Part shown: one piece after another, positions 18,550 through 31,038 of the stretch
Layout: every line of letters begins with the position of its first letter
Numbering within the stretch: the first letter of the stretch is position 1
From: an uncultured Eubacteriales bacterium
Lineage (GTDB): Bacteria > Bacillota > Clostridia > Peptostreptococcales > Anaerovoracaceae
Length of the DNA stretch: 64,000 nucleotides
Direction of reading: 5' to 3'
NCBI GenBank assembly: GCA_902786855.1
Contig: CADAEH010000002.1
Location: 62,001-126,000 of the forward strand
Position numbers and translations under genes: made by a program
Notes under the pieces: generated by a model
What the model was told of the DNA's origin: nothing
Databases searched by the model: none
The model's input: the letters and a program-made list of their open reading frames with translations, nothing else

Positions 18550-18759
18550 TCAGTATTTCACAAAACGATTCTCATGGATGAAAATCTCTTCAAGCCTGAG
18601 GCCAAGCAAATCTGCAAGGTCCAGAGCAAGTTCAAGCGACGGCGTACATCTGCCGTTCTCGATAGAGCTTATAGTCTGTCTGCTGACTCCGAGCATATCT
18701 ACAAGATAGCCCTGCCCTATCTTTTTCTCTTTTCTGATCTGTGCTAATTTGTTTTCCAT
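18550..18759 (-). CDS. Small XRE-family transcriptional regulator
   Basis: A 69-residue protein that is almost entirely one helix-turn-helix domain (LAQIRKEKKIGQGYLVDMLG, VSRQTISSIENGRCTPSLE), matching the short YozG/Cro-like regulators common in Firmicutes. It sits just outside the integrated element, on its left. The upstream DNA (18799-18905) has repeated half-sites that could be its operators. The regulated gene is not evident. It might be autoregulatory or act on a neighbour beyond the original tRNA locus. Confidence 0.85.
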   Translation of the reverse strand: MENKLAQIRKEKKIGQGYLVDMLGVSRQTISSIENGRCTPSLELALDLADLLGLRLEEIFIHENRFVKY

Positions 18760-19003: not shown

Positions 19004-19040
19004 TGGTGCCCAGACCCGGAATTGAACCAGGGACACGGGG
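19004..19040. repeat. attL: 37-bp copy of the tRNA-Phe 3' end
   Basis: Identical over 37 bp to 30963-30999, covering the CCA end, acceptor 3' strand, T arm and variable part of tRNA-Phe; the match stops at the next base on both sides. It marks the left junction of the integrated element. Confidence 0.93.
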
Positions 19041-19195
19041 TTTACAAAATGCACATTTCCGCAATCCGTTGCAATTACTTGCTTACAGGCGAAAAAGCTT
19101 GAAATTTCAATACTTTCAGCTTGTCGCACCTTTTTATATCTTTGCGTAACTTTTCATAGTTTTACACACTTATACATAACTTCTGTGCTAAAAAA

Positions 19196-19202
19196 GTGTT
19201 AA
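19196..19202. repeat. Left copy of GTGTTAA, possible integrase arm site
   Basis: GTGTTAATT lies 156 bp inside the left end. The same GTGTTAA occurs three times with 11-12 bp spacing at 30866-30895 near the right end. This is a candidate arm-type site for the element's integrase. Confidence 0.3.
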
Positions 19203-19258
19203 TTATCACCTTATAAAACGAATTGAACCAAGGACTTTTTCTGCCCTTGGTTCTTTTA

Positions 19259-19453
19259 CTACTTGCCTTTGAGATACTCACCTATAGCAATATTAACGAT
19301 TTCATTCACACTCAGACCTGTTTCAGAGGATAAAGCCTTTAGTGTGTCAAACATGGTAGGTGTTACAAGCAGCTGCATCCGTTTTGATCGCGTTTCGGGT
19401 GTACTGTCTGCCAGCCTTTTCAGTTCCTCAATCAACTCCGTAGCTGTCGGCAT
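19259..19453 (-). CDS. Small ribbon-helix-helix (CopG-like) protein
   Basis: About 64 residues beginning MPTATELIEELKRLADS and carrying an RHH-like core: a strand MQLLVTPTMFDTLKALS and helix GLSVNEIVNIAIGEYL. Such proteins are small DNA-binding regulators or antitoxins. AAGGAG upstream supports the ATG at 19451-19453; the frame opens at 19495. It is the gene closest to attL, followed by no toxin on its strand. A role as regulator of the left-end cargo is possible, but no target is visible. Confidence 0.7.
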   Translation of the reverse strand: MPTATELIEELKRLADSTPETRSKRMQLLVTPTMFDTLKALSSETGLSVNEIVNIAIGEYLKGK

Positions 19454-19509
19454 GGTTTGTCTCCTTGTCTCAGTAATAAGCTGATTATAGCACATGGAGA
19501 CTAACTATG

Positions 19510-19785
19510 TTACGCCCTTTCCTTTACAAAAGCATTCAGCAACTCAGATAAGCGCCCTGCACTCTCAATCGGTAAGGATATTCCCCTTGTCATGTTTTCA
19601 TGGTTCTTATCCCATGCGCGGATATCAAGCCTTGGTGTTCCCTTGTTCCAGCTTACAATATTAAGCTCGGTATTCCATCCTGACTCATGCGTACCTATTA
19701 CTCCAAGATATTCCACGATTTCAAAAGTCATAAGTTTGTTTTCCATGTTTCTACTCCCTTCTGTTCTTAACATATACACATACAC
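19510..19785 (-). CDS. YdbC/PC4-like single-stranded DNA-binding protein
   Basis: About 78-91 residues. From MENKLMTFEIVEYLGVIG on, it matches the YdbC family, bacterial homologues of the PC4 coactivator: SGWNTELNIVSWNKGTPRLDIR and MTRGISLPIESAGRLSELL are typical. Family members bind single-stranded DNA as homodimers. The start may be the ATG within MENKLM (19745-19747) rather than the upstream one, as the family begins there. In an integrated element such a protein could help replication or transcription. YdbC genes are also common on ICEs, so it may be cargo. Confidence 0.75.
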   Translation of the reverse strand: MYVYMLRTEGSRNMENKLMTFEIVEYLGVIGTHESGWNTELNIVSWNKGTPRLDIRAWDKNHENMTRGISLPIESAGRLSELLNAFVKERA

Positions 19786-19913
19786 GGTGTGTATACTTAT
19801 AATAACGCTTCTGAACGGCTTTTACAAGCGGAATGAGTATTTATATGGTTTCGATGTAAAAACCGCTTAAATCGTAAAATATTGCCCTGTACGGATTAGC
19901 TGTTTCACCTTAT

Positions 19914-19921
19914 GCTATAAT
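19914..19921 (+). promoter_or_regulatory. Extended -10 promoter of the potassium channel gene
   Basis: TGCTATAAT, with TG one base before a perfect TATAAT at 19916-19921, lies about 36 nt upstream of the channel start. No good -35 is seen, as usual for extended -10 promoters. It suggests the channel is expressed on its own while integrated. Confidence 0.5.
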
Positions 19922-19957
19922 CATTCTTGAAGCTGATAATCAGAAGGGATAATAACG

Positions 19958-20710
19958 ATGCGTAAGAGAATATATGAAGTGATAGAGGTTGCAAAGGAAA
20001 ATGATTTCGCAAGCACTTGCTATGATTGGTTCATGATCCTTGCGATTATAATAAGCATCCTTCCCCTTACCATTAAAGAGCCGGGGGCTGCATTTCAGAT
20101 AGTGGATAAAATATGTGTCACTATTTTTATAATAGATTATCTTCTGAGACTCATAACGGCTGATTATAAATATGGTTCCCATACTATCGGATCATTTATA
20201 AAATACCCCTTTTCCTTTATGGCGATAGTAGATTTACTTTCAATTCTGCCGTCCTTCATCATGATAAACAAAGGCTTTAAACTCTTGCGTTTACTTAGGA
20301 TGACAAGGGCCATGAGAGTATTCAGGGTATTCCGCGCTATACGTTATTCCAAAAGCTTTGATATTATTGCTGCTGCTATCAAAAGTTCCAAAGATACCCT
20401 GCTTGCTGTTTGTGTGCTTGCATTGGGTTATATCCTTGTCTCTGCGTTGATAGTTTTCAATGTTGAGCCTGATTCATTCGGTAATTTCTTTGAAGCAATA
20501 TATTGGGCTACAGTATCATTGACTACAGTTGGATATGGAGATATTTATCCTGTGACCGCTACAGGCAGAGTCATAACGATGATTTCATCCTTTTTCGGAG
20601 TAGCTGTCGTGGCTCTCCCTGCTGGTATCATAACCGCTGGATACATGACAGAACTTGAGAAAAGGAAAAATATCAATCAGGATGATACCTCTCATCCTCA
20701 TAGCTCCTGA
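19958..20710 (+). CDS. Voltage-gated-type potassium channel carried by the element
   Basis: A 250-residue ion transport protein with a six-segment layout. The S4-like helix with Arg at every third position is at 111-129 (RLLRMTRAMRVFRVFRAIR). The pore helix and potassium selectivity filter TTVGYGD are at 189-195. It ends soon after S6 with no RCK or cNMP domain. It should conduct K+ across the membrane in response to voltage. The only plus-strand gene in this half of the element, it has its own promoter, and its 3' end overlaps the HNH gene by 38 bp. A second, RCK-containing channel lies on the chromosome at 41422. As element cargo it might depolarise the host during phage attack, which is inference only. 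Confidence 0.85.
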   Translation: MRKRIYEVIEVAKENDFASTCYDWFMILAIIISILPLTIKEPGAAFQIVDKICVTIFIIDYLLRLITADYKYGSHTIGSFIKYPFSFMAIVDLLSILPSFIMINKGFKLLRLLRMTRAMRVFRVFRAIRYSKSFDIIAAAIKSSKDTLLAVCVLALGYILVSALIVFNVEPDSFGNFFEAIYWATVSLTTVGYGDIYPVTATGRVITMISSFFGVAVVALPAGIITAGYMTELEKRKNINQDDTSHPHSS

Positions 20711-20954
20711 TTCTTCTCAAATAGTTATGCATCTTTATATGACAGGGAGCGCACAGGGTAACAAGGTCAGCCATTACATTTTCATGACCAAGATTCTTAT
20801 AGGTTATGTGATGCACCTGTAAACCGTGCTTTGTCTTTTCCGAAGGTCTGCCACACATCACACACCTATAGGAATCTATCCTCATTCTTTCATGCTCGGT
20901 CTGTTTCCATTCTTCGCTGCGTATATACCTGTTATAAAAATCCGACCTGCTCAT
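20673..20954 (-). CDS. Phage-type HNH endonuclease
   Basis: A 93-residue HNH nuclease. It has the zinc Cys pair CVMC, the catalytic core LQVHHITYKNLGHENVMADL and the second pair CAPCH. Its size and N-terminus (FYNRYIRSEEWKQTEHERM) match HNH proteins coded next to terminase genes in cos phages, where they assist terminase cleavage. It starts with a 4-nt overlap to the upstream gene and belongs to the leftward operon that carries TerS and TerL, though separated from them by six small genes. Confidence 0.9.
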   Translation of the reverse strand: MSRSDFYNRYIRSEEWKQTEHERMRIDSYRCVMCGRPSEKTKHGLQVHHITYKNLGHENVMADLVTLCAPCHIKMHNYLRRIRSYEDERYHPD

Positions 20955-21301
20955 ATTACAGCCCTTGTCAGTTCCAATACATCAACAGGATAAGTTGTGT
21001 TCCGCGCCTTTAAGATTCCGTCCTCTACGATGCTGGCACAAAGATTCATTTTCAATGTACCTGAGCGGTTCAGCATTTCAGCTGGGACTATTGTCATTCC
21101 GTCAGAATCTATAACAGATTCCTTCTGACCAAAATCCGTCCACCAAATAGCGTATACTGTTTCAAACTCATCCCATGCCGATGACAGTTCTATATGTGAT
21201 TCTATGTAGTTGATTGTACCTGTTGCGTATGTCTTGAAATCAGAAATGCGCTCAAGGTCTTGAGAACCAACCGCCTTAAAATCAATTCTTACTTTTTCCA
21301 T
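20951..21301 (-). CDS. Hypothetical protein, baseplate/fibre-domain-like
   Basis: A 116-residue protein without membrane segments. The pattern of beta strands with AIWWTDFGQKESVID and MTIVPAEMLNRSGTLKMNL resembles the small domain found at the N-terminus of phage upper baseplate or tail fibre proteins (a charged strand, then an IPxExL turn). It is coded between HNH and an ArpU-like gene with overlaps to both, so it is part of the late operon. If related to structural phage proteins it could help divert helper particles. The similarity is weak and I do not assign a function. Confidence 0.55.
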   Translation of the reverse strand: MEKVRIDFKAVGSQDLERISDFKTYATGTINYIESHIELSSAWDEFETVYAIWWTDFGQKESVIDSDGMTIVPAEMLNRSGTLKMNLCASIVEDGILKARNTTYPVDVLELTRAVI

Positions 21302-21764
21302 TTTTCTTATCCTCTATTTCTATTCCCTGCTCTCTAAGAACCTTTTTAAGTTCCTTCTTTGCTGCCCATACGACTTTCGGAAGTTCGTGTTCTTTGATGC
21401 ACAGCATTTCGCTAAGTCCATCCCTGCGTTTTTCCATCGGCTTATAAATACCTGCAACGTATATCGAAAAAAGCACAAGCTGATGCGTGGATGACAGTTT
21501 TTTGAGATTTAAGCATAGCTGATACTTGTACTCATTATGCTTGTCAGCTGCCTTGAAATATCTTTCCCTTGCTACGATCACGCTATCCGTCAGCAACTTT
21601 TCGCGGTTGTTTTCTGTTGACTTGTGCTTCAAGCCGTCCTCACTTGCATTAAGGGATGATTGCGGTGAAGTCGCTTTGTCAAAAGCCTGTATATATCGCT
21701 CGTACTTATCCCACATATCAATTTTGAGCCATTCCAAATACCATAGGTACTCATTTACTGTCAT
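21282..21764 (-). CDS. ArpU/DUF1492-like putative late transcription regulator
   Basis: A 160-residue protein with an N-terminal coiled region (YLWYLEWLKIDMWDKYERYI) and a C-terminal part that could form a sigma-4-like helix-turn-helix (LSEMLCIKEHELPKVVWAAKK). This resembles DUF1492/ArpU-type proteins that switch on late and packaging genes in phages of Firmicutes. A run of G just upstream serves as ribosome site. It overlaps the next gene. The assignment is tentative because the HTH is not strongly conserved. Confidence 0.45.
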   Translation of the reverse strand: MTVNEYLWYLEWLKIDMWDKYERYIQAFDKATSPQSSLNASEDGLKHKSTENNREKLLTDSVIVARERYFKAADKHNEYKYQLCLNLKKLSSTHQLVLFSIYVAGIYKPMEKRRDGLSEMLCIKEHELPKVVWAAKKELKKVLREQGIEIEDKKNGKSKN

Positions 21765-21779
21765 ACATAACCCCCGGGC

Positions 21780-22061
21780 TTATTCGCTAAAGAACTTTGA
21801 ACAAGCTTCATCGGTATCACTTCCAGCAGCTCTCAAAAGCCTAATCCTTTTGCAATCCGTCACAAAAGTTTCATTTCTTGGCAGCAGTAATTCATATGCA
21901 AGGCATCTTTTTTTCCTGTAATGTAGGCGAACGGCTATGATTATTCCTATTTTTCCGCTGTTACAAAAACCGTCTGGTCTTATCTGTACGATATCGCCAA
22001 CCTTGTAGTCAAAATCCCTTACAAAGTGTTTATTTTCATTTCCCGAAGTTTTATTGCCCAT
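21780..22061 (-). CDS. Small SH3-barrel-like (KOW-like) protein, copy 1
   Basis: A 93-residue protein whose core FDYKVGDIVQIRPDGF, IGIIIAVRLHYRKKR and LLLPRNETF looks like a small beta barrel with a VGDxV(x)I entry strand. It is clearly paralogous to the protein at 22159-22458 (same order: VGDIVQI, xxIIxxR, xxLxxNEx). The function is unknown; such folds bind RNA, DNA or proteins. The pair sits in the late operon between the ArpU-like gene and a coiled-coil gene. Confidence 0.65.
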   Translation of the reverse strand: MGNKTSGNENKHFVRDFDYKVGDIVQIRPDGFCNSGKIGIIIAVRLHYRKKRCLAYELLLPRNETFVTDCKRIRLLRAAGSDTDEACSKFFSE

Positions 22062-22158
22062 ATTGTTCCCTATGCTTTATTAACTGAGGATGCAGGGTAC
22101 CACCACGACAGCAGCACCCTGCACTTCTGCAATTTCTTTGGATGCATTTATTTGCTTT

Positions 22159-22458
22159 TCAGATTTCTGACAGGTCGTTCTGTTCGCAGCTTCTTATATA
22201 TTCGATATCACACGCGCCCAATGTCAGCGATTCATTATCAGATAGCTTCAGCTGATACGATATATAATCCCTGCCCTTTTTCGATACAAGCGCACGTATA
22301 CCAATAATGACCGCTACACGCCCTGCCTGTTTTCCGTTTAGTATCTGTACTATATCGCCCACATGAAAATCTATTTTCCTTTTAAACTCTGCTTCTGTCA
22401 TCCGTGGTTTTGGGATTTTTGAAGGCATTTCCATTAGTTCGTCTGTGAGTGCTATCAT
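22159..22458 (-). CDS. Small SH3-barrel-like (KOW-like) protein, copy 2
   Basis: About 99 residues, related to the protein at 21780-22061: FHVGDIVQILNGKQAG, VAVIIGIRALVSKKG, YQLKLSDNES. The ATG at 22456-22458 is preferred because AGGUG follows the upstream stop; a GTG at 22467 also opens the frame. Between the two copies 97 bp carry an 8-bp inverted repeat (TGCAGGGT/ACCCTGCA). The duplicated, diverged pair suggests two related binding roles. No function can be named. Confidence 0.65.
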   Translation of the reverse strand: MIALTDELMEMPSKIPKPRMTEAEFKRKIDFHVGDIVQILNGKQAGRVAVIIGIRALVSKKGRDYISYQLKLSDNESLTLGACDIEYIRSCEQNDLSEI

Positions 22459-22467
22459 GGTCAACAC

Positions 22468-23190
22468 CTATACCGTCCAAGGCTTATTGTATTTGATTTC
22501 GTTGTATGCTTCATTCCAAGTCGGAACGGCAAGAGAAGTCAACGCAGAAAACCCTGCTTTGCTGCCTGTCTGTGATATTTCATGGAATGACCTTTTGATC
22601 TCTTCATCATCAACACACTTTGTCTCGTGTTCTCCGTTGTTGATAAGTTCTTCAAGTTCGTTGTAGTAAATCAAAAGCACTCTGCAAATACAATTAACGT
22701 AAGGCGGTAGGTTCTTTAAAACATCATAAGGATTTTTCCTGTTACCTACTGCACCCTCAAACGAATAGCGCAGCATCCTTAACTTTTCAAATTCCGTTAT
22801 ATCCTTTTCGTAAAAATCAACAAACTGTTTAAGCAGCTTAAAAGTTTCCGTCTGAACTTCTGCCTTGATCCTTTCATGCTCTGCGATATATGATGCTGTC
22901 CAATCAGTATATTCTTCGTCTGTTGTTCCCGGCCTTGTCTCGATTAGTGCTGCCTGTCCCTCATAAAGTTCAAGGCTTTTCTCAAGTTCTTCGATGCGCT
23001 TTTCATTCTTGATATATTCTTCGGCTGTCATTGTGCTGACTTCACCCGAAAGCCTGTATCTGATTTCCTTTATTTCTCTTTCGGCATCTTCACACTTGTC
23101 TGCCAATTCAAACAGCCTGTTTGCTTTGCGTTCTGCAAACTCGTTATATTTTGCAAGTAGTTCATTAAATGCGCTTTTTTCTTTCTTCAT
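22468..23190 (-). CDS. Coiled-coil hypothetical protein
   Basis: About 240 residues, starting MKKEKSAFNELLAKYNEF, with long charged helices (KCEDAEREIKEIRYRLSG, IKNEKRIEELEKSLELYE) that predict coiled coil, then a globular part with LPPYVNCICRVLLIYYNEL. No membrane segments. I do not recognise the family. AAAGGA supports the ATG at 23188-23190; the frame opens at 23226, inside the upstream gene. It lies in the leftward packaging/late operon of the element, where scaffold-like or capsid-size-redirecting proteins would be expected, but nothing in the sequence proves that role. Confidence 0.6.
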   Translation of the reverse strand: MKKEKSAFNELLAKYNEFAERKANRLFELADKCEDAEREIKEIRYRLSGEVSTMTAEEYIKNEKRIEELEKSLELYEGQAALIETRPGTTDEEYTDWTASYIAEHERIKAEVQTETFKLLKQFVDFYEKDITEFEKLRMLRYSFEGAVGNRKNPYDVLKNLPPYVNCICRVLLIYYNELEELINNGEHETKCVDDEEIKRSFHEISQTGSKAGFSALTSLAVPTWNEAYNEIKYNKPWTV

Positions 23191-23209
23191 GGTTTTTGTC
23201 CTTTCGCTT

Positions 23210-23416
23210 TTACTTCGCCTGTTCATCTGTAAAAAGGTGAATGTTTTCTTTTATCAGCTTCAGCCGTTTCTGTGAGTCTTTTTCCTCTAAAATCTGCTTT
23301 TTAGTTATCGGTGGATTCATAGCAAAAGCCTTCAGCTGTGCTACATCTTCCCGAAGTTCTTTCAAAATGTCCTGATTTGTTTCTGCTGTTTCGTTTGTGT
23401 TTGTTTCGTTTGTCAT
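23210..23416 (-). CDS. Hypothetical 68-residue protein
   Basis: A small polar protein with a Thr/Asn/Glu-rich start (MTNETNTNETAETNQDIL), then a helical charged region (KELREDVAQLKAFAMN) and LIKENIHLFTDEQAK. It lies 70 bp after terL and just before the coiled-coil gene, with a GAAAGGGAAG ribosome site. No similarity recognised. It could be a partner of the following coiled-coil protein, judged only by adjacency. Confidence 0.55.
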   Translation of the reverse strand: MTNETNTNETAETNQDILKELREDVAQLKAFAMNPPITKKQILEEKDSQKRLKLIKENIHLFTDEQAK

Positions 23417-23486
23417 GGTTTCTTCCCTTTCTCCGCTAATAGTGATATTTATTTAAAGGGCGCTTTATAGAGTGCCCCGGCTCTGT

Positions 23487-24923
23487 TTATCCTATACGCA
23501 TGACCTTTTGAGGATTCCGCTTTGATGTTCTGCACCCCCATAGCGCCAAGCTGGCTGCTTCTATCGGAGCGCTGTCTGAACCACCGAACCCCCAGCCCCC
23601 TGCAATCGGTCTTTTTACTGAGGTTATAGCGCTGTCTCTTAAAGGTTCCTGTTTCTCATACCATGTAACGGTATGTTCATTCAGTTCATTAAGCAGCAAG
23701 CTTGATGCAGTTATGATGTTCTGCGCGGAAGGTTTTATAACCGAACCCTTAAAGCGCCACACTTCGCCGATTTTGTCTATCAGTACATCTGAGCCGTTTC
23801 TACCGTCTATCACGACACAGGATGCCCTTTTGTATCTTTCATTCAGCCAATTAGCAAGCCACGACAGACCGACTCCAAGCGGTTTTCTGTCTATGAGCGA
23901 TATTCTTGAAATACCATCATCACCTATGACCGCACCGCATAACACGACCTCAGAACCATCGGCAGAAAACTTGATGCCGTATGCAGTTTTCCCTTCGGGC
24001 TTCAGCTTATCGCTTTTACAGGAATCCCATAGTGCCGTATCAATGGCAAAATCCGACTCTGTTTGGATATTCGGACTCCATCTTCCTAACCGCTCCCTGC
24101 AAAATCCGTCAGGACTAAGTGTTTTCAATTCTTCCCCTGTAAATTCTTCCGTGAGCCTGTACCCCAAGGCTGGATTACATTCATACCAAAGCGCTTTGTC
24201 ATCTATCTTGATTTTATCTACAGGGTCAGATGGTATGCTCCACTCATGCCAGCAGCTTGCACCGGGTTCATCGGCTGTTATACATCCTTCCCTGAATCTG
24301 CTGAATACTTCTCCTGATGTAGTGGAATAAACAGGCGTACCTATATAAAGCAATTGCCTTATACCTGTGATTGATGCACTCAGCACGGATACAATAGCTT
24401 CCGCTTGGTCATCCGTCAGCTCTTGCGCTTCATCAAATACGACTAAGGAAATGCCTTCATATCCTCTTGCTGTCTGTCGTGACCTTGAAGTGAACTCAAT
24501 AACACCGCCATTATTCAGTTCTATGCATTCTTCACCTATGCCGTACCTGATACGCTTAACAGCTTGCATGACCTCAGGATAACGTTTATCTGTAAACATA
24601 CTCACAAGCCGTCTGAACGCCCTTTTGGTTGTCCTTACCTGATGTGCTGTGTGCAGGATCCTCTCTGCATTTATCATCAAGCCGTAAAATTCTCGCGCTT
24701 CTACGATTACATTCTTTCCGTTTTGGCGCGGTACGGATAGACCTGCACTTGTAACGGTATAGTTTCCGTATCCGTCTTTACCAAGCCATGCATCCAATAC
24801 CAAGCGCTGCCAATCATCCAATATGTAGCCGTATTCTTTCATCAGCATTGCTGCACCTGTACCGTCTGTGCTGGCTCTTTCGGGTTCTATTCTGATTCTT
24901 GGTTTCTGATTGCCCTGCATCAT
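23487..24923 (-). CDS. Phage terminase large subunit
   Basis: A 478-residue TerL. The ATPase domain has a Walker A of the type PRQNGKN at about 65-71 and Walker B VVFDEAQEL at 161-169, followed by the coupling motif YIGTP. The C-terminal RNase H-like nuclease domain shows Asp-containing strands (YGIKFSADGSEVVL, CVVIDGRNGSDVLI). It should package DNA into a prohead using ATP and cut it. Length is at the short end of the usual range but both domains are present. It overlaps the TerS gene by 4 nt. No portal or capsid gene follows, so the motor must work on heads supplied by another phage. Confidence 0.92.
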   Translation of the reverse strand: MMQGNQKPRIRIEPERASTDGTGAAMLMKEYGYILDDWQRLVLDAWLGKDGYGNYTVTSAGLSVPRQNGKNVIVEAREFYGLMINAERILHTAHQVRTTKRAFRRLVSMFTDKRYPEVMQAVKRIRYGIGEECIELNNGGVIEFTSRSRQTARGYEGISLVVFDEAQELTDDQAEAIVSVLSASITGIRQLLYIGTPVYSTTSGEVFSRFREGCITADEPGASCWHEWSIPSDPVDKIKIDDKALWYECNPALGYRLTEEFTGEELKTLSPDGFCRERLGRWSPNIQTESDFAIDTALWDSCKSDKLKPEGKTAYGIKFSADGSEVVLCGAVIGDDGISRISLIDRKPLGVGLSWLANWLNERYKRASCVVIDGRNGSDVLIDKIGEVWRFKGSVIKPSAQNIITASSLLLNELNEHTVTWYEKQEPLRDSAITSVKRPIAGGWGFGGSDSAPIEAASLALWGCRTSKRNPQKVMRIG

Positions 24924-25294
24924 TTCGCTTCTTTCATTTGCCTTACGATATCAAGGGTAGTTCTTCCGTTGTTTATGATTTCGGCTTGCATTTCCCTTGG
25001 TAGGTATGAGGTGTATTTTTCCAATGCTGATAAGTATGTTTTCATAAGTGACACATATCCCTTGAATGCAGGGTTCTCCCTTATGCCTTTCTGACCACCG
25101 CCATTATCATAAGGAACAACTATTCCGCTGCTTTTGATAAGTGCCCTTGAATCATCAAGCTTTATTCTCATCCATGCGAGATTATCAATCACAGGTGCCA
25201 ATACATCCTGTTGCTGTTTTGGTATGTGTGCTTCATCAAGCAATGCATATAAGCGCCTGTATTCGGCTTCTATGCGTGTATCATTAGTAGTCAT
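24920..25294 (-). CDS. Phage terminase small subunit (P27 family-like)
   Basis: A 124-residue protein with the pattern of P27-type small terminases: paired helices (LDEAHIPKQQQDVLAPVIDNL), the conserved GIVVPYDNGGGQ and NPAFKGYVSLMKTYLSALEK segments. It selects the DNA to be packaged and delivers it to TerL. It overlaps terL by 4 nt. In classic phage-inducible islands the element's own TerS redirects packaging to the element genome; here TerL is also supplied. Confidence 0.88.
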   Translation of the reverse strand: MTTNDTRIEAEYRRLYALLDEAHIPKQQQDVLAPVIDNLAWMRIKLDDSRALIKSSGIVVPYDNGGGQKGIRENPAFKGYVSLMKTYLSALEKYTSYLPREMQAEIINNGRTTLDIVRQMKEAK

Positions 25295-25297
25295 TAG

Positions 25298-25411
25298 CTA
25301 CCCCCTAAAATTTCGTTTATCAACTAAATGCGAGCGCTGGCGGCTTGTTGTAGCGCCTGTGTAGGTGTAGGGGACAAGACCGCTCCCCCTAAAACATTTT
25401 TTTACGCTCAT
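25298..25411 (-). CDS. Possible 37-residue protein ahead of terS
   Basis: An ATG at 25409-25411 opens a 37-codon frame (begins MSVKKCFRGSGLVPYTYTG, very basic) that stops 3 nt before the terS start, over the GGGGG ribosome site of terS. This would couple translation of the two. The ribosome site for the small frame itself is weak, and the family is unknown. It may equally be a leader with no product. Confidence 0.3.
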   Translation of the reverse strand: MSVKKCFRGSGLVPYTYTGATTSRQRSHLVDKRNFRG

Positions 25412-25449
25412 TATTTTTTTATTTTTTCTTCCTGTGTCTGCCTGATTAT

Positions 25450-26049
25450 TTATTGTGACAGCAACACCTGAAGCTCTCTGTCTATCCCATTCTTACCCCT
25501 GCGGAGCTGTTCGCTTATCTCTTGTTCAGTTGGTGTTAGTCTTGTTTTCCAATCTGACTCACCAAGCCTTGACCTATCTTGTATCAAGCTATCCAATTCC
25601 TCTTCATATTGCTTTAATATCCAATCAGGGGAGCCGTGTTTCCTTAGTGCCCGGTAGCAAGCGTTCAGCTTATCTATCTCGGTATCTAAATAAGTCCTCA
25701 GCTGCGCTTTGTTTTCTTTATCTGAATCTGACTTGATGCGGTTCCACGTTATCTGTTCCTTGTTTTCCTGTTCGCTGCTTACTGCAATACCGAAGTCATT
25801 TGCCAACTTTATGACAGCATCCTTAAAGTCGATACCGAAATACTGTCGTGCAAAGTCGATGACATCCCCTTTCATATCACATGACCAGCAGCGCCACCTG
25901 TTACCCTTTACGGATAATGAAGGGTGCTTATCGTTATGGAACGGACAAAGCATTTTGCCGTGTATCACCTGCGACCCTGTGTAATATGTGATAACCTGTA
26001 CAGGATCAAGTGTTTTTATTTCATTGATTGTCTGTTCTGTTATCTTCAT
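25450..26049 (-). CDS. CHC2 zinc-finger primase (N-terminal type)
   Basis: About 199 residues. The first 90 form a CHC2 zinc finger domain as in DnaG primases: CPFHNDKHPSLSV, then WRCWSCDMKGDVIDF, with the four ligands Cys-His-Cys-Cys. No TOPRIM catalytic domain follows. The rest is helical and charged (YEEELDSLIQDRSRLG). Such short proteins accompany a separate helicase/ATPase in satellites and conjugative elements. The start is chosen at the ATG at 26047-26049, preceded by GAGG. It sits just downstream of the iteron array and RepA-like gene, so a role in starting replication at that array is likely. Confidence 0.8.
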   Translation of the reverse strand: MKITEQTINEIKTLDPVQVITYYTGSQVIHGKMLCPFHNDKHPSLSVKGNRWRCWSCDMKGDVIDFARQYFGIDFKDAVIKLANDFGIAVSSEQENKEQITWNRIKSDSDKENKAQLRTYLDTEIDKLNACYRALRKHGSPDWILKQYEEELDSLIQDRSRLGESDWKTRLTPTEQEISEQLRRGKNGIDRELQVLLSQ

Positions 26050-26067
26050 ATCTATCCTCATTCACTT

Positions 26068-26157
26068 ATAAAGTCAGAATAGTTAGTAAAGTCAGTAGAG
26101 TTGAAATAGTTAGCAAAGTCAGTATTTGCAAGACTTTTGCGACTTTTCCGACTTTCT
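26068..26157. repeat. 9-bp iteron array, candidate replication origin
   Basis: The intergenic space between the RepA-like gene and the primase gene is built of ten 9-bp steps. Read on the minus strand, six are direct (TGACTTTAT, TAACTATTC, TGACTTTAC, CAACTCTAC, TAACTATTT, TGACTTTGC), one is a spacer and three are inverted (AAAAGTC cores at steps of 9). AAAGTC cores lie at 26070, 26088 and 26115; GACTTT at 26132, 26141 and 26150. In staphylococcal islands the origin is likewise an iteron set beside the primase/helicase gene. Confidence 0.7.
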
Positions 26158-26158
26158 G

Positions 26159-27280
26159 CTACTCGTTAGCGTGGTTATGGTTCGTGAAGTGGTAGTCCTT
26201 TCCATACTTGACAAAGGAAAACCCATCCTCACGCAGCAAAGCTTCATACTTCTTCAAGTCCATTCCAAGCTGATTGGCATTACTCGGGATTGGTGTATTG
26301 GTCTTGTAACTTATCTTGATGAGATCGCTCGGCTTACCATCCCAAGTCACGCTCCATTGAGTAACGGCTTGCAGGGTCTGTCTGATATTTGTCCGCTCAT
26401 ATTCTTTCCGTAGTCTATCGGCTACAACTTCTTCCGTTGTGCTGTATCTTTTCCAAATGAAATTGTCAGTATCGAACTGTATTGCGTACTCCTGTGATTC
26501 AACATCACGCCCCTTTATCTTCAGCACACCTGAACGCTCAGAGTTCTTGTCCTTGGTCAACATCCATATACAATCGGCTGCCGGGTTTATTCCCGACCCC
26601 CTTGCTGAGTCGTAGTCATCCGAATACACCTCACCCTTGACTACATGGTTCACAATCACGACGGATACATCATGTTTATCAGCAATATCCTTCAATACTG
26701 TTACGTCACGATAATCCCATGAGTAAGTATCTTCTCCATTCTTGCGCTTGCTTCTGATTTTGCTGAATACATCAACGACAACCAGCTTTATATTTGTGTT
26801 GTAGTCGAGGATCGCGGTAAGCGTTTCCGCGAAGCCGTTATCTAATGTCAATGGAATGCCCTTATCAGTTGTCAAATTGTTGCGTGTAATGATGTGGCAA
26901 TCATCTGATAACGGCAGCGTTCTTGATATCAAATTAAGTCGGTCATGTGGTCTGCTCTCGCTCGATTCCATGTCAAAGTACAATGTTTCGCTCTTGTCCG
27001 TAGGAAAACCGAAATACTCCATTCCGTTACTTACGGCAGCACACAAGCCAAGAGCAGCAAAGGACTTGAACATCTTTTCTTTTCCAGCGAAGTGCGTTAC
27101 CCCCACAGGCAGGATGCCTTTAACAATCCACTTAGTCGGTGGAATGTCCATTGATGCAAGTTCAAGAGCCCCATACATCATAGGAATATGGATTCCCCGC
27201 CTTTTCAGAAATTCTCTTTCTAAATCAGCATTATGTGTGTTTTCTCCCTTTTGTAATTCCCTGATATCCTCATTTGTCAT
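26159..27280 (-). CDS. RepA-like/AAA_25 replication ATPase
   Basis: A 373-residue RecA-fold ATPase. The Walker A region is HFAGKEKMFKSFAALGL (about 64-80), a variant loop, and the Walker B VVVDVFSKIRS is near 180, with IVNHVVKG and RGSGINPAADCIWML following. This is the arrangement of RepA-like helicases (AAA_25) found in phages, plasmids and islands. The C-terminal 80 residues form a separate DNA-binding-like part. It should load on the origin next to it (26068-26157) and act as replicative helicase or initiator together with the CHC2 primase. Confidence 0.82.
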   Translation of the reverse strand: MTNEDIRELQKGENTHNADLEREFLKRRGIHIPMMYGALELASMDIPPTKWIVKGILPVGVTHFAGKEKMFKSFAALGLCAAVSNGMEYFGFPTDKSETLYFDMESSESRPHDRLNLISRTLPLSDDCHIITRNNLTTDKGIPLTLDNGFAETLTAILDYNTNIKLVVVDVFSKIRSKRKNGEDTYSWDYRDVTVLKDIADKHDVSVVIVNHVVKGEVYSDDYDSARGSGINPAADCIWMLTKDKNSERSGVLKIKGRDVESQEYAIQFDTDNFIWKRYSTTEEVVADRLRKEYERTNIRQTLQAVTQWSVTWDGKPSDLIKISYKTNTPIPSNANQLGMDLKKYEALLREDGFSFVKYGKDYHFTNHNHANE

Positions 27281-27330
27281 CTATTCACCCTGCCGTGCCA
27301 AAAGAAATAACGTTCCCTTGATAGACCTGC

Positions 27331-27537
27331 TCACTCCTGAACCTCATCCCCGTTGAGAAAGTCAATGAAGCGATCAAAATTGATGAGGTACTTATTTCCT
27401 GTCTTCAAGTAAATAATTTTGCTCTCAATACATAGTTGCCTTATGAAGTGATAGGACAATCCTGTACGAGCAGATACTTCCTTGATTGGGAGCATAAGCG
27501 GTACCTTGTGCCGCATTTTCCCTTCATGTATAACCAT
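27331..27537 (-). CDS. Xis/excisionase-like MerR-type HTH protein
   Basis: A 68-residue protein with the excisionase-type winged HTH: LPIKEVSARTGLSYHFIRQL and a wing ending in YLINFDRFIDFL. Such proteins in Tn916-like elements and satellites bend the ends and direct the integrase toward excision, and may also regulate. A GGGGGG run precedes the start at 27537. It is coded right after the Cro-like gene in the leftward early operon. Confidence 0.75.
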   Translation of the reverse strand: MVIHEGKMRHKVPLMLPIKEVSARTGLSYHFIRQLCIESKIIYLKTGNKYLINFDRFIDFLNGDEVQE

Positions 27538-27546
27538 TCAGCCCCC

Positions 27547-27738
27547 CTATTCCTCAAACAAATCTTCGACAGAAAGTTCCAACGCATCCGCTACCTTCTT
27601 CTTCCATCCCGGCCAAAATTCCACTTTTCCATTGATGGCTGCATAAAGCGCCTGTGGAATGATGCCTGACTTGAGTGCAAGCTGTCTGACCGACATTTTT
27701 CTTTGCTCCAATTCCTTTTTTAACCTTACAGAACTCAC
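27547..27738 (-). CDS. Cro-like XRE regulator, GTG start
   Basis: A 63-residue helix-turn-helix protein (LKKELEQRKMSVRQLALKSG, IIPQALYAAINGKVEF, ALELSVEDLF). The start is GTG at 27736-27738 with GGGAGGGG in front. First gene of the leftward operon and divergent from the repressor gene, it holds the position of Cro in a lysogeny switch. A shifted frame over the same DNA is not protein-like and is left out. Confidence 0.8.
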   Translation of the reverse strand: MSSVRLKKELEQRKMSVRQLALKSGIIPQALYAAINGKVEFWPGWKKKVADALELSVEDLFEE

Positions 27739-27789
27739 TTTTCCCCTCCCTGTTCGTCAATTTTCAAGTATTGCAAGCTTACGGTGTTT

Positions 27790-27863
27790 ATGTTAAAGTA
27801 TTCAATGTAATTTATAAATGACATTTGTACACCAATTATCAATATTATGTTAAGGTTGAATGT
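27790..27863. promoter_or_regulatory. Divergent control region of the element with repeated operator-like motif
   Basis: In the 139-bp spacer between the Cro-like and repressor genes, ATGTTAAAGTATTCAATGT (27790-27808) and ATGTTAAGGTTGAATGT (27847-27863) are imperfect copies. They are probable binding sites for the repressor or the Cro-like protein. Confidence 0.45.
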
Positions 27864-27877
27864 GAGGTTTATATAAC

Positions 27878-28774
27878 ATGAAGTACAATCCAAGAACATT
27901 AGGCAAGAAGATCCTCGACTGTCGTGAAGAAAAGGGCTTTACTCAGGCTGCGCTGGGTGAAGAACTTGCCAACCGCATAAAGGATGACCCTGAAGCAAAG
28001 AAATACGATCGCACGACTATATCAAGATGGGAAAGCGGAAACACCTCTCCAAGAGTCAATGAACTTCTTGCACTTTGCGATATCTTTGAATGCGATTTTG
28101 GATATCTAATCGGAGAGCCGGGATATGAAAACAAGACAAGGGCAGCAACAGATATGGCAAAGGAAACCGACCTAACAGGAGAAGCTGCCTATATATTGCA
28201 AAAGTACAAAAAGAGCGCCAGCAAGAGAGAACCATACACAGCAAGCAAATTTCTTTATCCTGATGAATTCATCCCTGCCCTTATCTCATATATGTTGACA
28301 AGTGATGACTTTAATCGGCTTGTAAATCGTATTTGCTCACAGAACTGCAATGCTAATGATTATGATTTGATGCCTGACATTGAAAAAGAAATCGTTACAG
28401 AGGCATATACAGCCGCAAAAAGATTTATCGGATCTGAATCCGTAGCGGATATTTCGTTACTAAGGGTTGGGTATCTTGGAGCGTTGAATATCATCATGGC
28501 AGAAAAGAAAGACGCGATTAGAGACCATATAAAGTCATCAGTAACAGACACAATTAGAAGGTATAACGATACGGATGCAGATAGTTATCTCGCAGAACAG
28601 ACAGATGAGTACTATGAATATGTGTTTACCGAACGAATGAAAGATGCTTTTGACCTTGTAAGCACAGAGGAAAGCGAGGCTATAGAGATGAACAACTTCC
28701 TCAATCAAAAGGACTTGTTCAATATCGTATCTAAATTCATGGAACCAATCACTAAGCACAGAAAAGAGGTGTAG
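27878..28774 (+). CDS. Element repressor (XRE N-terminal domain)
   Basis: A 298-residue protein with an N-terminal helix-turn-helix (GKKILDCREEKGFTQAALGE, RTTISRWESGNTSPRVNELL) and a long helical C-terminal part (VADISLLRVGYLGALNIIM, NNFLNQKDLFNIV) of no known enzymatic type. There is no Ser-Lys peptidase signature, so it is not a LexA/CI-type self-cleaving repressor. Large non-cleaving repressors that are relieved by binding a helper phage protein (Stl in SaPIs) have this design. It is divergent from the early operon and ends 2 nt before the integrase gene. Confidence 0.78.
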   Translation: MKYNPRTLGKKILDCREEKGFTQAALGEELANRIKDDPEAKKYDRTTISRWESGNTSPRVNELLALCDIFECDFGYLIGEPGYENKTRAATDMAKETDLTGEAAYILQKYKKSASKREPYTASKFLYPDEFIPALISYMLTSDDFNRLVNRICSQNCNANDYDLMPDIEKEIVTEAYTAAKRFIGSESVADISLLRVGYLGALNIIMAEKKDAIRDHIKSSVTDTIRRYNDTDADSYLAEQTDEYYEYVFTERMKDAFDLVSTEESEAIEMNNFLNQKDLFNIVSKFMEPITKHRKEV

Positions 28775-28776
28775 AC

Positions 28777-29976
28777 ATGGCAAAGAAAACTAACTGTGTA
28801 ATAAATGGGAAACCGTATTACAGGCTGACCAAGACCATTGGGCGCAAGCTTGTTAATGGAGAAGAGGTCGCTGTGCGTAAATCATTCTATGGCTCATGCA
28901 AGGCTGATGCAGAAGCAAAGTATCAAGCATACTTGGATAAGAAGAATGCAGGGATCGAGACAAAGACTCAGTATTTCGGAGTTCTTGCTGATGGCTGGAT
29001 ATCAGAGTTCTTTGTTAATGACGGTTCATTGAAGGACTCAACAAAAGCGCGTTATGTAGCTGCATGGAACCGCACCTTCAAACCTAAGAACGTAAAAAAG
29101 GCACGCAGCAAACAAGCGCTTGAAATCTATCATAGTTCGCTGGATACCATTACTGCAAAGACCCTGCAATCCATTTATAACGAAATGGCAAAGAACGGTG
29201 TTCCTGTATCTGAGATAAAGACCATTCATAAAATCATGAAGAAGTTTTACAGGTACATAGAATATGAAGGGCTTGGAAGGGATGTTACAGGACCGCTGAC
29301 GATACCTAAGGAAAAGGTAAACGCTGCCGACTCAGAAATCAGAGTGTGGACGGATGAAGAAATCAAGACGATACTAAACAACTTTGACAAGGCAGATAAT
29401 CGCTTCAGGCACCGTTTTTTAATCGTATTGGCATATTATACCGGGTGCCGTAAATCTGAGCTTTTAGCCCTAACTTATGACGATATAACTGAGGACGGAG
29501 TACGAATCACAAAGACCCTTGCAGAGGTTAGTGACGGACTTGTTAACGGAAAGATGAAAACACACTTAGCCGTTACAGACCCTAAGACAAGAAAATCCGT
29601 CAGGACTATCCCTGTTGATCCTGTTGTGCTTGAGGAATTGAAACTTCACAAGAAATGGCATAAAGCTGAGCAATTAAAGAACGGATATCGCAGCAATTAC
29701 ATTTTTACTACTGACAGCGGAGAATTTTATAACAATAAAAATCTCGATGTTGCGATATTCCGTTACTATAAGAAGATTGGTGTTGAGCCTAAGACGATGC
29801 ACACATACAGGCATACATACGCAAGTAATCTATGTCGCTTCGGAGTTCCTATACAGACAGCCTGTGTGCTGCTTGGACATGACTCCATAGAGACTACCGC
29901 AAGATTCTATGTAAATGTTGCCGAAGACTCAAAGCGTAATGCAGCTATGCTGCTGAGGAAGGCAGTTGAAGCATAA
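28777..29976 (+). CDS. int: Tyrosine site-specific integrase
   Basis: A 399-residue tyrosine recombinase. It has an N-terminal arm-binding-type domain, a SAM-like core-binding domain (YVAAWNRTF) and a catalytic domain with R225 (TGCRKSELLAL), H342 and R345 (HTYRHTYASNL), H368 (LLGHDS) and nucleophile Y378. It integrates the element into the 3' end of tRNA-Phe by recombining a 37-bp core (attL 19004-19040, attR 30963-30999). It lies 2 nt after the repressor gene and is transcribed with it toward attR, ending at a strong terminator. Confidence 0.95.
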   Translation: MAKKTNCVINGKPYYRLTKTIGRKLVNGEEVAVRKSFYGSCKADAEAKYQAYLDKKNAGIETKTQYFGVLADGWISEFFVNDGSLKDSTKARYVAAWNRTFKPKNVKKARSKQALEIYHSSLDTITAKTLQSIYNEMAKNGVPVSEIKTIHKIMKKFYRYIEYEGLGRDVTGPLTIPKEKVNAADSEIRVWTDEEIKTILNNFDKADNRFRHRFLIVLAYYTGCRKSELLALTYDDITEDGVRITKTLAEVSDGLVNGKMKTHLAVTDPKTRKSVRTIPVDPVVLEELKLHKKWHKAEQLKNGYRSNYIFTTDSGEFYNNKNLDVAIFRYYKKIGVEPKTMHTYRHTYASNLCRFGVPIQTACVLLGHDSIETTARFYVNVAEDSKRNAAMLLRKAVEA

Positions 29977-29980
29977 ACAA

Positions 29981-30012
29981 AAACCCTGTATCACTACAGG
30001 GTTTCTTTTTTT
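29981..30012 (+). terminator. Rho-independent terminator after int
   Basis: A 10-bp perfect stem (29981-29990 with 29995-30004), loop TCAC, then TTTCTTTTTT. It overlaps the stop codon of the convergent SAP-domain gene. Confidence 0.85.
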
Positions 30013-30761
30013 ACCATATTTTCGCCAAACAGCTTTTCTTCTTTTGCGCCGACTACTTCTTTCCACTCGGAAACATTTTTCCCTTTAAGCAATTTATTTA
30101 TAGACCATACGTTGAACTCATCCCCGAACTGAGAGCCTTCTATAGTTTTGTTTTTATGCTTGTGCATATAAGGTATATAAGCATTTTCCTGAAGTTCTGC
30201 TGTGCCCTTTTCTGTAAGCCTATATTTTCTATTGATTGCATATTTCTCAATTTCTTCACTCGGTAAGGCTGAAAGAACAGTTTTTAATATATCGTCTTTT
30301 TTACCCTTTACAGGTATATCATGTTCTTCGGCTATAGCTTTAAGCTCCGCAACCGTCAGGCGCTTTATAGTGTTCTCCGCGCTATCATACTGTATATAGC
30401 CCCTATCAAGTAATGACTTTAACGCATTGCCTACATCCCTTATTCCGTATTCAAACCACCAAAAGCCCGGGTATCCGTTTTTAGGCTTTGGATATGTGCC
30501 ATATGAACAATATTCCAATAAAAGGTCTTCTGCCACATATAGACCTGTACTTGATGGATATGAGATCGCTTTACGTTCGTCAAATGTGATTACCCTTTTC
30601 TCAAATGGCGTTCCCTGATGTGCAGCGCAGGTATAGTATTCGTCTGCCTGATAATAAGGGCGCTCATCAGCATCTATTGAACTTGAATCTGCATAAGCCT
30701 TTGAAACAGGCGCTTCAGCTTTGACTTCTTTTTTACCTACTAACTTTGAAAATAAACCCAT
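29994..30761 (-). CDS. Cargo gene: SAP-domain protein
   Basis: A 255-residue cytosolic protein. The middle carries a SAP motif (LTVAELKAIAEEHDIPVKG, then KKDDILKTVLSAL), flanked by a compact unknown N-terminal domain (DERPYYQADEYYTCAAHQG, WWFEYGIRDVGNALKSLLD, a winged-helix-like pattern) and a C-terminal region containing YRLTEKGTAEL. AGGGGA precedes the start. It stands alone between int and attR, opposite in direction to int, the classic cargo slot of satellites where defence or virulence genes reside. No defence family is recognised, so the function is open. Confidence 0.65.
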   Translation of the reverse strand: MGLFSKLVGKKEVKAEAPVSKAYADSSSIDADERPYYQADEYYTCAAHQGTPFEKRVITFDERKAISYPSSTGLYVAEDLLLEYCSYGTYPKPKNGYPGFWWFEYGIRDVGNALKSLLDRGYIQYDSAENTIKRLTVAELKAIAEEHDIPVKGKKDDILKTVLSALPSEEIEKYAINRKYRLTEKGTAELQENAYIPYMHKHKNKTIEGSQFGDEFNVWSINKLLKGKNVSEWKEVVGAKEEKLFGENMVKKETL

Positions 30762-30865
30762 GATTTCCCCTGCCTTTATACGAATTAAAGATATATGGTT
30801 CTATTCAATTTTAGTCGCTTATTTGCAGTTAATCAACATGACAGGCTCAAAATATAACAGTATGA

Positions 30866-30895
30866 GTGTTAATGGATGTGTTAAAGATGTGTTAA
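30866..30895. repeat. Three GTGTTAA repeats near the right end (possible arm sites)
   Basis: GTGTTAA at 30866-30872, 30878-30884 and 30889-30895, spaced by 12 and 11 bp, about one helical turn. A fourth copy lies near the left end (19196-19202). Candidate integrase arm-type binding sites. Confidence 0.4.
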
Positions 30896-30927
30896 TTCAC
30901 ATAATTTAGGCATATTTCAAGAAATAA

Positions 30928-30960
30928 AAAACCCCTGAATCCGTTGGAATTTCAGGGGTT
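30928..30960 (-). terminator. Element-borne terminator behind the restored tRNA-Phe
   Basis: On the minus strand AACCCCTGAA and TTCAGGGGTT form a stem ending in a U-run, 2 nt after the CCA end of tRNA-Phe. It belongs to the element and replaces the original terminator now found at 18972-19003. Confidence 0.85.
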
Positions 30961-30962
30961 CG

Positions 30963-30999
30963 TGGTGCCCAGACCCGGAATTGAACCAGGGACACGGGG
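30963..30999. repeat. attR: 37-bp repeat within tRNA-Phe
   Basis: Identical to 19004-19040. It forms the 3' part of the intact tRNA-Phe gene, so integration leaves the tRNA functional. Confidence 0.93.
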
Positions 31000-31038
31000 A
31001 TTTTCAGTCCCCTGCTCTACCTACTGAGCTATCTGGGC
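30963..31038 (-). tRNA. tRNA-Phe (GAA)
   Basis: 76 nt with encoded CCA. Cloverleaf with acceptor GCCCAGA/TCTGGGC, anticodon GAA in CTGAAAA, T loop TTCAATT. Last gene of the leftward tRNA array and integration site of the element. Confidence 0.95.

Follow-up and report, generated by a model that had tools for sequence, protein, structure and literature searches.

A 12-kb tRNA-Phe element of an uncultured Eubacteriales bacterium probably represents a family of cos satellites with a complete terminase and no shell

Is a DNA-packaging motor that lies in a chromosome without a capsid the remnant of a prophage or the working part of a phage satellite? The question is raised by a 64,000-nucleotide stretch of an uncultured Eubacteriales bacterium of the Anaerovoracaceae (assembly GCA_902786855.1, contig CADAEH010000002.1, positions 62,001 to 126,000; hereafter, the window), in which a 12-kb element at 19004 to 30999 encodes both the small (TerS) and the large (TerL) terminase subunits. 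We scanned its 19 open reading frames (ORFs) against Pfam and PHROGs and found no convincing match to a portal, capsid, or tail family, as the first-pass annotation had stated. We consider it quite likely that the element is an integrated satellite of siphophages that is packaged from a cohesive-end site (cos), has its own terminase and a scaffold mimic, and borrows the shell of its helper. With slightly less assurance, we propose that it belongs to an undescribed family. The founder would have acquired an entire cos terminase (TerS-TerL plus cos) in one event from siphophages of gut Clostridia and would then have diversified into islands and plasmid-like circles. Their replication systems would be unrelated, and their common possessions would be the terminase, a cos of their own, and a truncated scaffold that shrinks the helper's capsid: a whole motor and no shell.

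The borders are sharp. Thirty-seven identical base pairs, the 3′ end of tRNA-Phe, bound the element at 19004..19040 and 30963..30999; over 40 nucleotides (19004-19043 versus 30963-31002), the match is 98%, with the first 37 positions identical. On the right, the copy forms the 3′ portion of a complete tRNA-Phe gene (30963-31038, minus strand), which stands at the end of a tRNA cluster. A third copy at 19220 was rejected as a further attachment (att) site, since by eye it looks like part of a hairpin. The helix-turn-helix (HTH) gene that flanks the element on the left (18550-18759) has an uninterrupted tRNA-Phe within a few hundred bases in 10 of the 11 same-genus loci examined; the remaining locus (L207) begins near a contig end and shows no tRNA-Phe. 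Thus, as judged from these comparisons, the 12-kb element is an insertion of foreign DNA into tRNA-Phe, and the borders originally proposed for it are confirmed by both the repeats and the empty site.

The integrase and repressor genes are read in one direction, and those for Cro, Xis, a RepA-like ATPase, a CHC2 protein, TerS, and TerL are read in the other. An integrase, a divergent repressor, a replication module, and a specific att site are the marks of a phage-inducible chromosomal island (PICI), and the absence of a complete virion gene set is that of satellites in general. All of these genes had been named before and were recovered by Pfam or PHROGs matches (Xis weakly); the repressor, which had been called noncleaving, indeed has no detectable peptidase domain. 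The features that bear on the proposed reading are as follows.

19004..19040, no strand: attL, a 37-bp copy of the tRNA-Phe 3′ end (repeat comparison)
23210..23416, minus: p68, putative mimic of a scaffold C terminus (CpmB-like), encoded immediately after TerL at the position of the phage portal gene
23487..24923, minus: large terminase TerL, ATPase and nuclease motifs intact (phrog_9, 3.6e-45)
24920..25294, minus: small terminase TerS (phrog_5110, 4e-6; alignment)
25292..25389, minus: putative cos region (only nhmmer match in the window, E 1.9 over both strands)
25450..26061, minus: CHC2 zinc-finger primase-type protein (PF01807, 2e-16)
26069..26155, no strand: short degenerate direct repeats, possible iterons or origin (repeat search, Tandem Repeats Finder)
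26159..27280, minus: RepA-like AAA ATPase, AAA_25 (PF13481, 4e-21)
27331..27537, minus: HTH_17, Xis-like (0.0018, below the cut-off; homologs in L202)
27547..27738, minus: Cro-type HTH protein (PF13443, 3.5e-6)
27878..28774, plus: HTH repressor (PF01381, 6.5e-8; no peptidase domain listed)
28777..29976, plus: tyrosine integrase (PF00589, 6e-24; 41% identical to that of the integrated G187 satellite)
30963..30999, no strand: attR, inside the intact tRNA-Phe gene 30963-31038 (repeat and tRNA gene)

Both terminase subunits scored below the cut-offs of the Pfam terminase models and were identified through PHROGs. The window TerL has what we take to be a Walker A motif (RQNGKN), a Walker B motif (DEAQ), acidic residues D322, D373, and E455, and the C-terminal residues MRIG. 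These motifs are nearly identical in 16 aligned relatives from phages and satellites; the variants are RQNGKS and DEAA in L003, DEGQ in L074, and different last four residues in L001, L064, and L068. A C-terminal tail common to phages and satellites would be compatible with portals of one type as the docking partner. A PICI in the usual sense carries terS at most and uses the helper's TerL; the window element supplies both subunits, as had been claimed, with the TerL motifs intact. In a tree of 51 rows built with a careful method, the TerL proteins of 18 portal-less elements, including that of the window, form one clade (support, 100/99), with 33 portal-bearing phages outside it; the bootstrap had not entirely converged, and the majority of inner forks are poorly supported. 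A quick-method tree of 95 rows agrees with it. No close TerL relative was found in the phage collection (1,697 records matched, all below 60% identity) or among plasmids (10 records, all actinobacterial, at 22 to 33%). Homologous portal-bearing phages do exist at lower similarity; therefore, on sequence grounds, the TerS-TerL pair of the window and its relatives came from phages.

The first relatives to be found, in the genome and genus searches and in IMG/VR, were prophages with TerS-TerL-portal-MuF-scaffold-capsid or parts of this series (L001 and L014 to L017). That such plain prophages are the nearest TerL relatives was overturned by the IMG/VR contigs L002 and L003: contigs of 11 to 13 kb in this database have closer TerS and TerL proteins and no portal. 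A TerS profile scan of IMG/VR gave 274 relatives, the best 80 of which were kept. The top 16 of these (L068 to L083) have no portal, and 61 of the 64 others have one; of the remaining three, L125 lacks it, whereas the contigs of L106 and L147 end too early for a decision. Several of the top 16 loci (L069, L073, L075, L079, and L080) are new cuts of contigs already counted. A search at E 1e-100 gave seven matches in 394 genomes of the order (the window, an integrated satellite in G187, and five loci with portals) and two in 391 genomes of the class (the window and G711, which has a portal).

In all, 20 other portal-less elements have a related TerL, comprising 19 IMG/VR contigs (L002, L003, L064, L066, L067, L068, L071, L074, L077, L078, L082, L148, L149, L151, L153, L186, L187, L188, and L189) and one chromosomal island, that of G187 (L202). 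TerL is present in all 20 and TerS in 18, the contigs of L067 and L151 stopping before it. Hidden Markov models built for this analysis found a portal or capsid gene in none of the 20 and a MuF gene in one; the Pfam model SPP1_portal was rejected as a portal test, since, besides finding nothing in 16 satellites, it recognized only two of four control phages. Eight relatives are complete, as circles or as (nearly) cos-to-cos linear molecules, and measure 11.0 to 12.9 kb. With ends that overlap exactly by 107 or 127 bp, L064 (12,925 bp), L186 (11,009 bp), L153 (11,831 bp), and L082 (11,262 bp) are closed circles. The linear molecules L003 (11,659 bp), L066 (11,340 bp), and L148 (12,777 bp) extend from cos to a point past an HNH gene, and L002 (11,792 bp) starts two bases earlier. 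In L189, the end overlap is 24 bp. The G187 copy, 9,738 bp in a tRNA-Thr between 41-bp repeats, is 41% (integrase), 50% (TerS), and 68% (TerL) identical to the window element. The same gene order had been predicted to recur in other genomes without capsid genes; the TerS-TerL pair and the lack of a portal are constant, as predicted, but the replication and integration modules vary. In L074, positions 3121-3438 encode a short protein that by eye resembles a phage neck or minor capsid stub, a name that we assign only presumptively; this contig has no gene of the p168 family described below.

Small proteins that resemble scaffold endings follow TerL. In 16 of the 20 relatives, this is a member of the p168 family (weakest in L082; not found in L064, L068, L074, and L189), which resembles only the C-terminal part of phage scaffolds and lacks the coiled-coil N terminus. 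The two p168 proteins tested (L153 and L070) match PHROG scaffold families with their C-terminal part only, and a loose pattern finds an FAEW-type ending motif twice in 7 of 14 p168-type proteins. The window has p68 instead, residues 34 to 62 of which match the last residues of the scaffolds of L084, L091, L011, and Streptococcus phage Javan149 (E, 1e-4 to 0.007; next match, 0.14). Among 50,697 phage records, p68 has eight matches, all named "capsid and scaffold protein" (E, 0.09 to 0.7); a comparison with solved structures gave nothing useful, and the L011 scaffold itself weakly matches DUF4355/Gp46, below the cut-off. SaPI1 CpmB, a protein of 72 residues that redirects assembly to small capsids, has a C-terminal helix and hook nearly equal to those of the 80alpha scaffold, according to the part of that account available to us (PMC5644958). 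As small proteins sharing a scaffold's C-terminal part, p168 and p68 are of this type, p168 with the stronger match and p68 with one that is short and has a weak E-value. Two different scaffold endings thus seem to be copied, one by the window element and the other by its relatives, and presumably they derive from different helpers.

A cos of the family could be located from contig ends. Among contigs for which the extracted locus, as oriented, extends to the left end, 30 of 79 left ends start at the same base upstream of TerS, with AGCN[C/G]C at base 1, against 0.21 expected; none of 52 right ends shows this motif. Three of the 30 are satellites (L003, L066, and L148), and the rest are phages. 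All four phage contigs checked (29,417, 32,786, 32,602, and 37,249 bp) start at this base and end just after HNH and a G-run/C-run. Cohesive ends of linear packaged DNA give shared ends at one base, and therefore we read the shared left ends as cos. The left ends of these 30 IMG/VR contigs would thereby mark cos sites, mostly of phages, to the base. Uncut satellite sites resemble AGCGCC..TTTTTAGCGG, with GGGGTAG downstream, just upstream of TerS. At the corresponding place, the window reads CCGCCAGCGCTCGCATTTAG..GGGGGTAG, with a GGGGG..CCCC stretch at 25389-25370, the core CCAGCGCTCGCATTTAG from 25340, and GGGGGTAG adjoining TerS. An nhmmer-type model from 14 relatives has its single window match exactly there; its E-value for the 155-bp gap alone would be about 0.002 by our own arithmetic. 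We therefore regard 25292-25389 as a probable diverged cos, in which the cut would be expected before the A at 25338.

Replication modules differ from member to member. The window has RepA and CHC2, L186 has a longer RepA-type protein, and L064 has a large primase-like protein (the primase names in L064 and L186, like the housekeeping and DnaD-like gene names in L202, are ones that we assume). ParA, a ribbon-helix-helix (RHH) protein, Rep, and a primase-helicase occur as a set in L002, L003, L066, L071, L078, L148, L149, L151, and L153. Members with this set, which we take to be plasmids by eye, would be extrachromosomal; in all, roughly half of the relatives are plasmid-like in appearance. 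The satellite type of primase-helicase also occurs in L155, which has no detected terminase, and in small Streptococcus plasmids (H59 to H62). This sharing suggests that the packaging module may have been added to a plasmid backbone. The primase-helicase is common to 29 plasmid records, mostly of Lactobacillus and Streptococcus, and was rejected as a family marker, its scan yielding satellites plus many terminase-less contigs. RepA, with matches of about 30% identity, none beside this TerL family in the loci examined, was rejected as well, and so was the coiled-coil protein CC252, which had one weak match besides the window in 247 genomes of the family and none in IMG/VR or phages. Coiled-coil proteins related to CC252 (family CC) are encoded by 12 of the 20 relatives; six encode members of a second family, CC194, which has no evident relationship to CC. 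Five relatives (L064, where it scored in Pfam, L068, L186, L188, and L189) encode a sigma-70-like factor, with a possible role in the expression of late genes, either their own or those of the helper. The genome from which the window comes (2.9 Mb in 62 contigs, 87% complete) has three more loci with a RepA-like ATPase and an integrase but without this terminase family (G000 contigs C14, C28, and C33; L055 to L057).

After TerL, the same direction of reading continues through p68, the coiled-coil protein, two KOW-like proteins, p160, p116, and HNH; the ion channel and the PC4-like and RHH proteins lie at the far end, and the SAP protein adjoins attR. The remaining features are the following.

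19259..19495, minus: RHH (Arc-like) protein (family match; similar RHH proteins in satellites L002, L003, L066, L067, L074, and L153)
19510..19785, minus: PC4-like DNA-binding protein (PF02229, 1.2e-6; phrog_26484, 9e-17)
19958..20710, plus: voltage-gated ion channel of K+ type, cargo (PF00520, 7e-31; 60% identical homolog in satellite L186/L070)
20673..20954, minus: HNH endonuclease (PF01844, 1.2e-8), by eye of another type than the cos-adjacent HNH of relatives
20951..21301, minus: p116 (37% identical homolog beside a KOW-like protein in satellite L074)
21282..21764, minus: p160 (no family match below E 0.07)
21780..22061, minus: KOW-like protein 1 (DNA similarity to 22342-22386, repeat D6; weak L074 match)
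22159..22467, minus: KOW-like protein 2 (PF00467, 7e-4, below the cut-off; L074 homolog)
22468..23226, minus: coiled-coil protein CC252 (related to family CC, which occurs in 12 of the 20 relatives)
29994..30761, minus: SAP-domain protein, possible cargo (PF02037, 1e-6)

The first-pass annotation had grouped HNH with TerS-TerL, from which it in fact lies apart, and had left out the K+ channel, the SAP-domain, PC4-like, and RHH proteins, and the 68-residue scaffold-like protein. It had also listed iterons: repeats do exist, but as short, degenerate 9-mers (26069-26122) that make weak candidates, and Tandem Repeats Finder reports only 26132-26155 there. From its position, p160 may be a late regulator. 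In L074, a p116 homolog comes after a KOW-like protein; p110 of L064 was rejected as a p116 homolog after alignment, and p116 had no match in the phage records. Ion channels of one type (60% identity) are cargo in two different satellites, that of the window and L186 (4091-5092), with a possible role in defense or in the timing of lysis.

How might such an element live? It would be silent under its own repressor until a helper phage enters or is induced and relieves the repression, probably through a phage protein; the lack of a peptidase domain in the repressor fits this mode of induction without showing it. Its own integrase would then excise it, and the RepA/CHC2 module would replicate it. 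Cutting of the concatemers at the element's own cos, upstream of terS, would fall to its own TerS-TerL, which would bind the portal of a helper belonging to the phage family that was the source of the captured terminase. With p68 mimicking the capsid-binding end of the scaffold, the shell would probably assemble small, sized for about 12 kb, and the helper would supply portal, capsid, and tail. Lengths of 9.7 to 13 kb for the members versus 29 to 37 kb for the phages suit small capsids. Candidate helpers are the siphophages of the L001/L004/L014/L095/L099/L101 group. All six have TerS-TerL, HNH, and cos, and L014 is from the same genus; they differ in carrying portal, MuF, scaffold, and capsid genes and in a cos-to-cos length of 29 to 37 kb (four measured).

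Several observations weigh against this reading of the element as a satellite with a borrowed shell. No portal of this phage family, and thus no resident helper, was seen in the window's own 87%-complete genome (the search had no positive control), and for this reason the helper would come from outside or lie on missing contigs. We found no second copy of the element, and only it and the G187 copy are integrated in genomes. The p68 match spans only 28 to 29 residues. The contig-end motif was chosen after the ends had been inspected, and the window cos is so diverged that the model gives an E of only 1.9 and a 26-nucleotide matrix does not place it among its six best sites. An unrecognized structural protein is conceivable among p116, p160, and CC252, which have no assigned function; a structure model of p116 had a mean pLDDT (predicted local distance difference test) of 39 and was not used. 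L153, otherwise shell-less, encodes a MuF head protein. Helper identity, packaging of the window copy, capsid shrinking, and the mode of induction are all matters that we infer.

Some of these points would suit a cryptic, decaying prophage whose head and tail genes have been deleted, as would the descent of TerS-TerL from portal-bearing siphophages, some in the same host genus. The MuF homolog of L153 (243 residues at 11229-11958 of its circle, between TerS and TerL across the closed contig ends) could be a leftover of this kind. However, the portal-less state is common to the whole TerL clade, to the att-bounded G187 copy, and to closed circular or cos-ended molecules; the window TerL motifs are intact; and a scaffold C terminus after TerL in 16 of 20 relatives could hardly arise repeatedly by random deletion. 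The closest TerS-TerL relatives do not lie in decayed prophages, and portal phages appear only at lower similarity, so that this alternative, named at the outset, now looks quite improbable. That the portal-less relatives are assembly fragments and the window a unique oddity deserves next to no credence: most relatives are metagenomic, and L067, L074, L077, and L151 are short, but four end-overlap circles, four cos-ended contigs, and the G187 copy between att repeats are not what fragmentation leaves.

Another alternative is an old family, the capsid-forming PICIs (cfPICIs), of which the element could be a variant minus its capsid block. cfPICIs carry HNH, terS, and terL (PMC10690885), and the integrase-repressor-replication layout is PICI-like (PMC6092414), as far as the portions at hand of both papers go. 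We nonetheless hold this to be unlikely, as no capsid, portal, or connector genes were found and relatives have ParA and a Rep initiator, a comparison of gene content. Satellites commonly interfere with their helpers, and TerS-TerL might have been retained for a different purpose, for example as a decoy to jam packaging by the helper, with the element moving otherwise; the ion channel and other cargo could then be defensive. This strikes us as very improbable: the first base of L003, L066, and L148 is exactly the cos base, as expected of packaged DNA, and a scaffold mimic has no role in such a scheme. The proposal of an undescribed family gains support from the relatives without shell genes.

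Among known systems, PICIs and S. aureus pathogenicity islands (SaPIs), especially SaPI1, likewise have int, a repressor, a replication module, sometimes terS, and a small scaffold-C-terminus mimic (CpmB). The window family differs from SaPI1-type PICIs in having terL besides terS, cos rather than pac, plasmid-like relatives, and other repressor and replication genes. The cos SaPIs of the SaPIbov5 type are alike in the cos packaging and capsid redirection proposed for the window family, but in the sections available they are described as carrying the helper's cos and using helper machinery (PMC6092414), with Ccm as a capsid-protein homolog (PMC8569155). cfPICIs share the possession of TerS and TerL, and HNH too in the window's relatives; on the available text, they also encode capsid, protease, portal, and connectors (PMC10690885), a set that neither the window element nor its 20 relatives encode. 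The Streptomyces satellites MulchRoom and MiniFlayer are alike in having their own small and large terminases and are otherwise the reverse case, with portal, capsid, and scaffold present and key replication genes lacking, as partly described in PMC10690885. Pseudomonas AH14b is likewise small, has no structural genes, and is packaged with a larger phage; it differs in its P4-like integrase, AlpA, and primase, and a terminase pair is not mentioned in the part of the report consulted (PMC4936722). From extracts of the respective papers, P4 exists as a plasmid or integrated (PMC7552001) and is packaged by the P2 terminase (PMC10690885), and pDolos is a plasmid satellite of single-stranded DNA phages (PMC11389934); plasmid satellites as such are thus already known. 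A 2024 review, as far as its available portion goes, lists P4-like elements, PICI, cfPICI, PLE, PICMI, VEIME, Tycheposon, soil elements, and pDolos (PMC11389934). Among the titles and abstract openings found in searches of an open-access library, none mentions a satellite with TerS and TerL but without a shell; VEIMEs, Tycheposons, and soil elements were compared by such brief descriptions only. The window element works like a PICI but without the helper's TerL, and like a cfPICI but without an encoded shell.

In the available parts of the cited papers, satellites either redirect the helper's motor, by a small terminase or a cos, or bring motor and shell together. If the present reading is true, motor and shell are separable in evolution, and the TerL-portal interface accepts a foreign motor. 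TerL is a usual marker for counting tailed phages in metagenomes, and elements of this kind may therefore be counted as phages; the contigs described here sit in a virus database, IMG/VR. Contig ends could serve for the bulk mapping of cos sites. Finally, the plasmid-like members with ParA, Rep, and cos would add a double-stranded DNA case to the few known plasmid satellites, and they suggest how nonconjugative plasmids may travel in particles.

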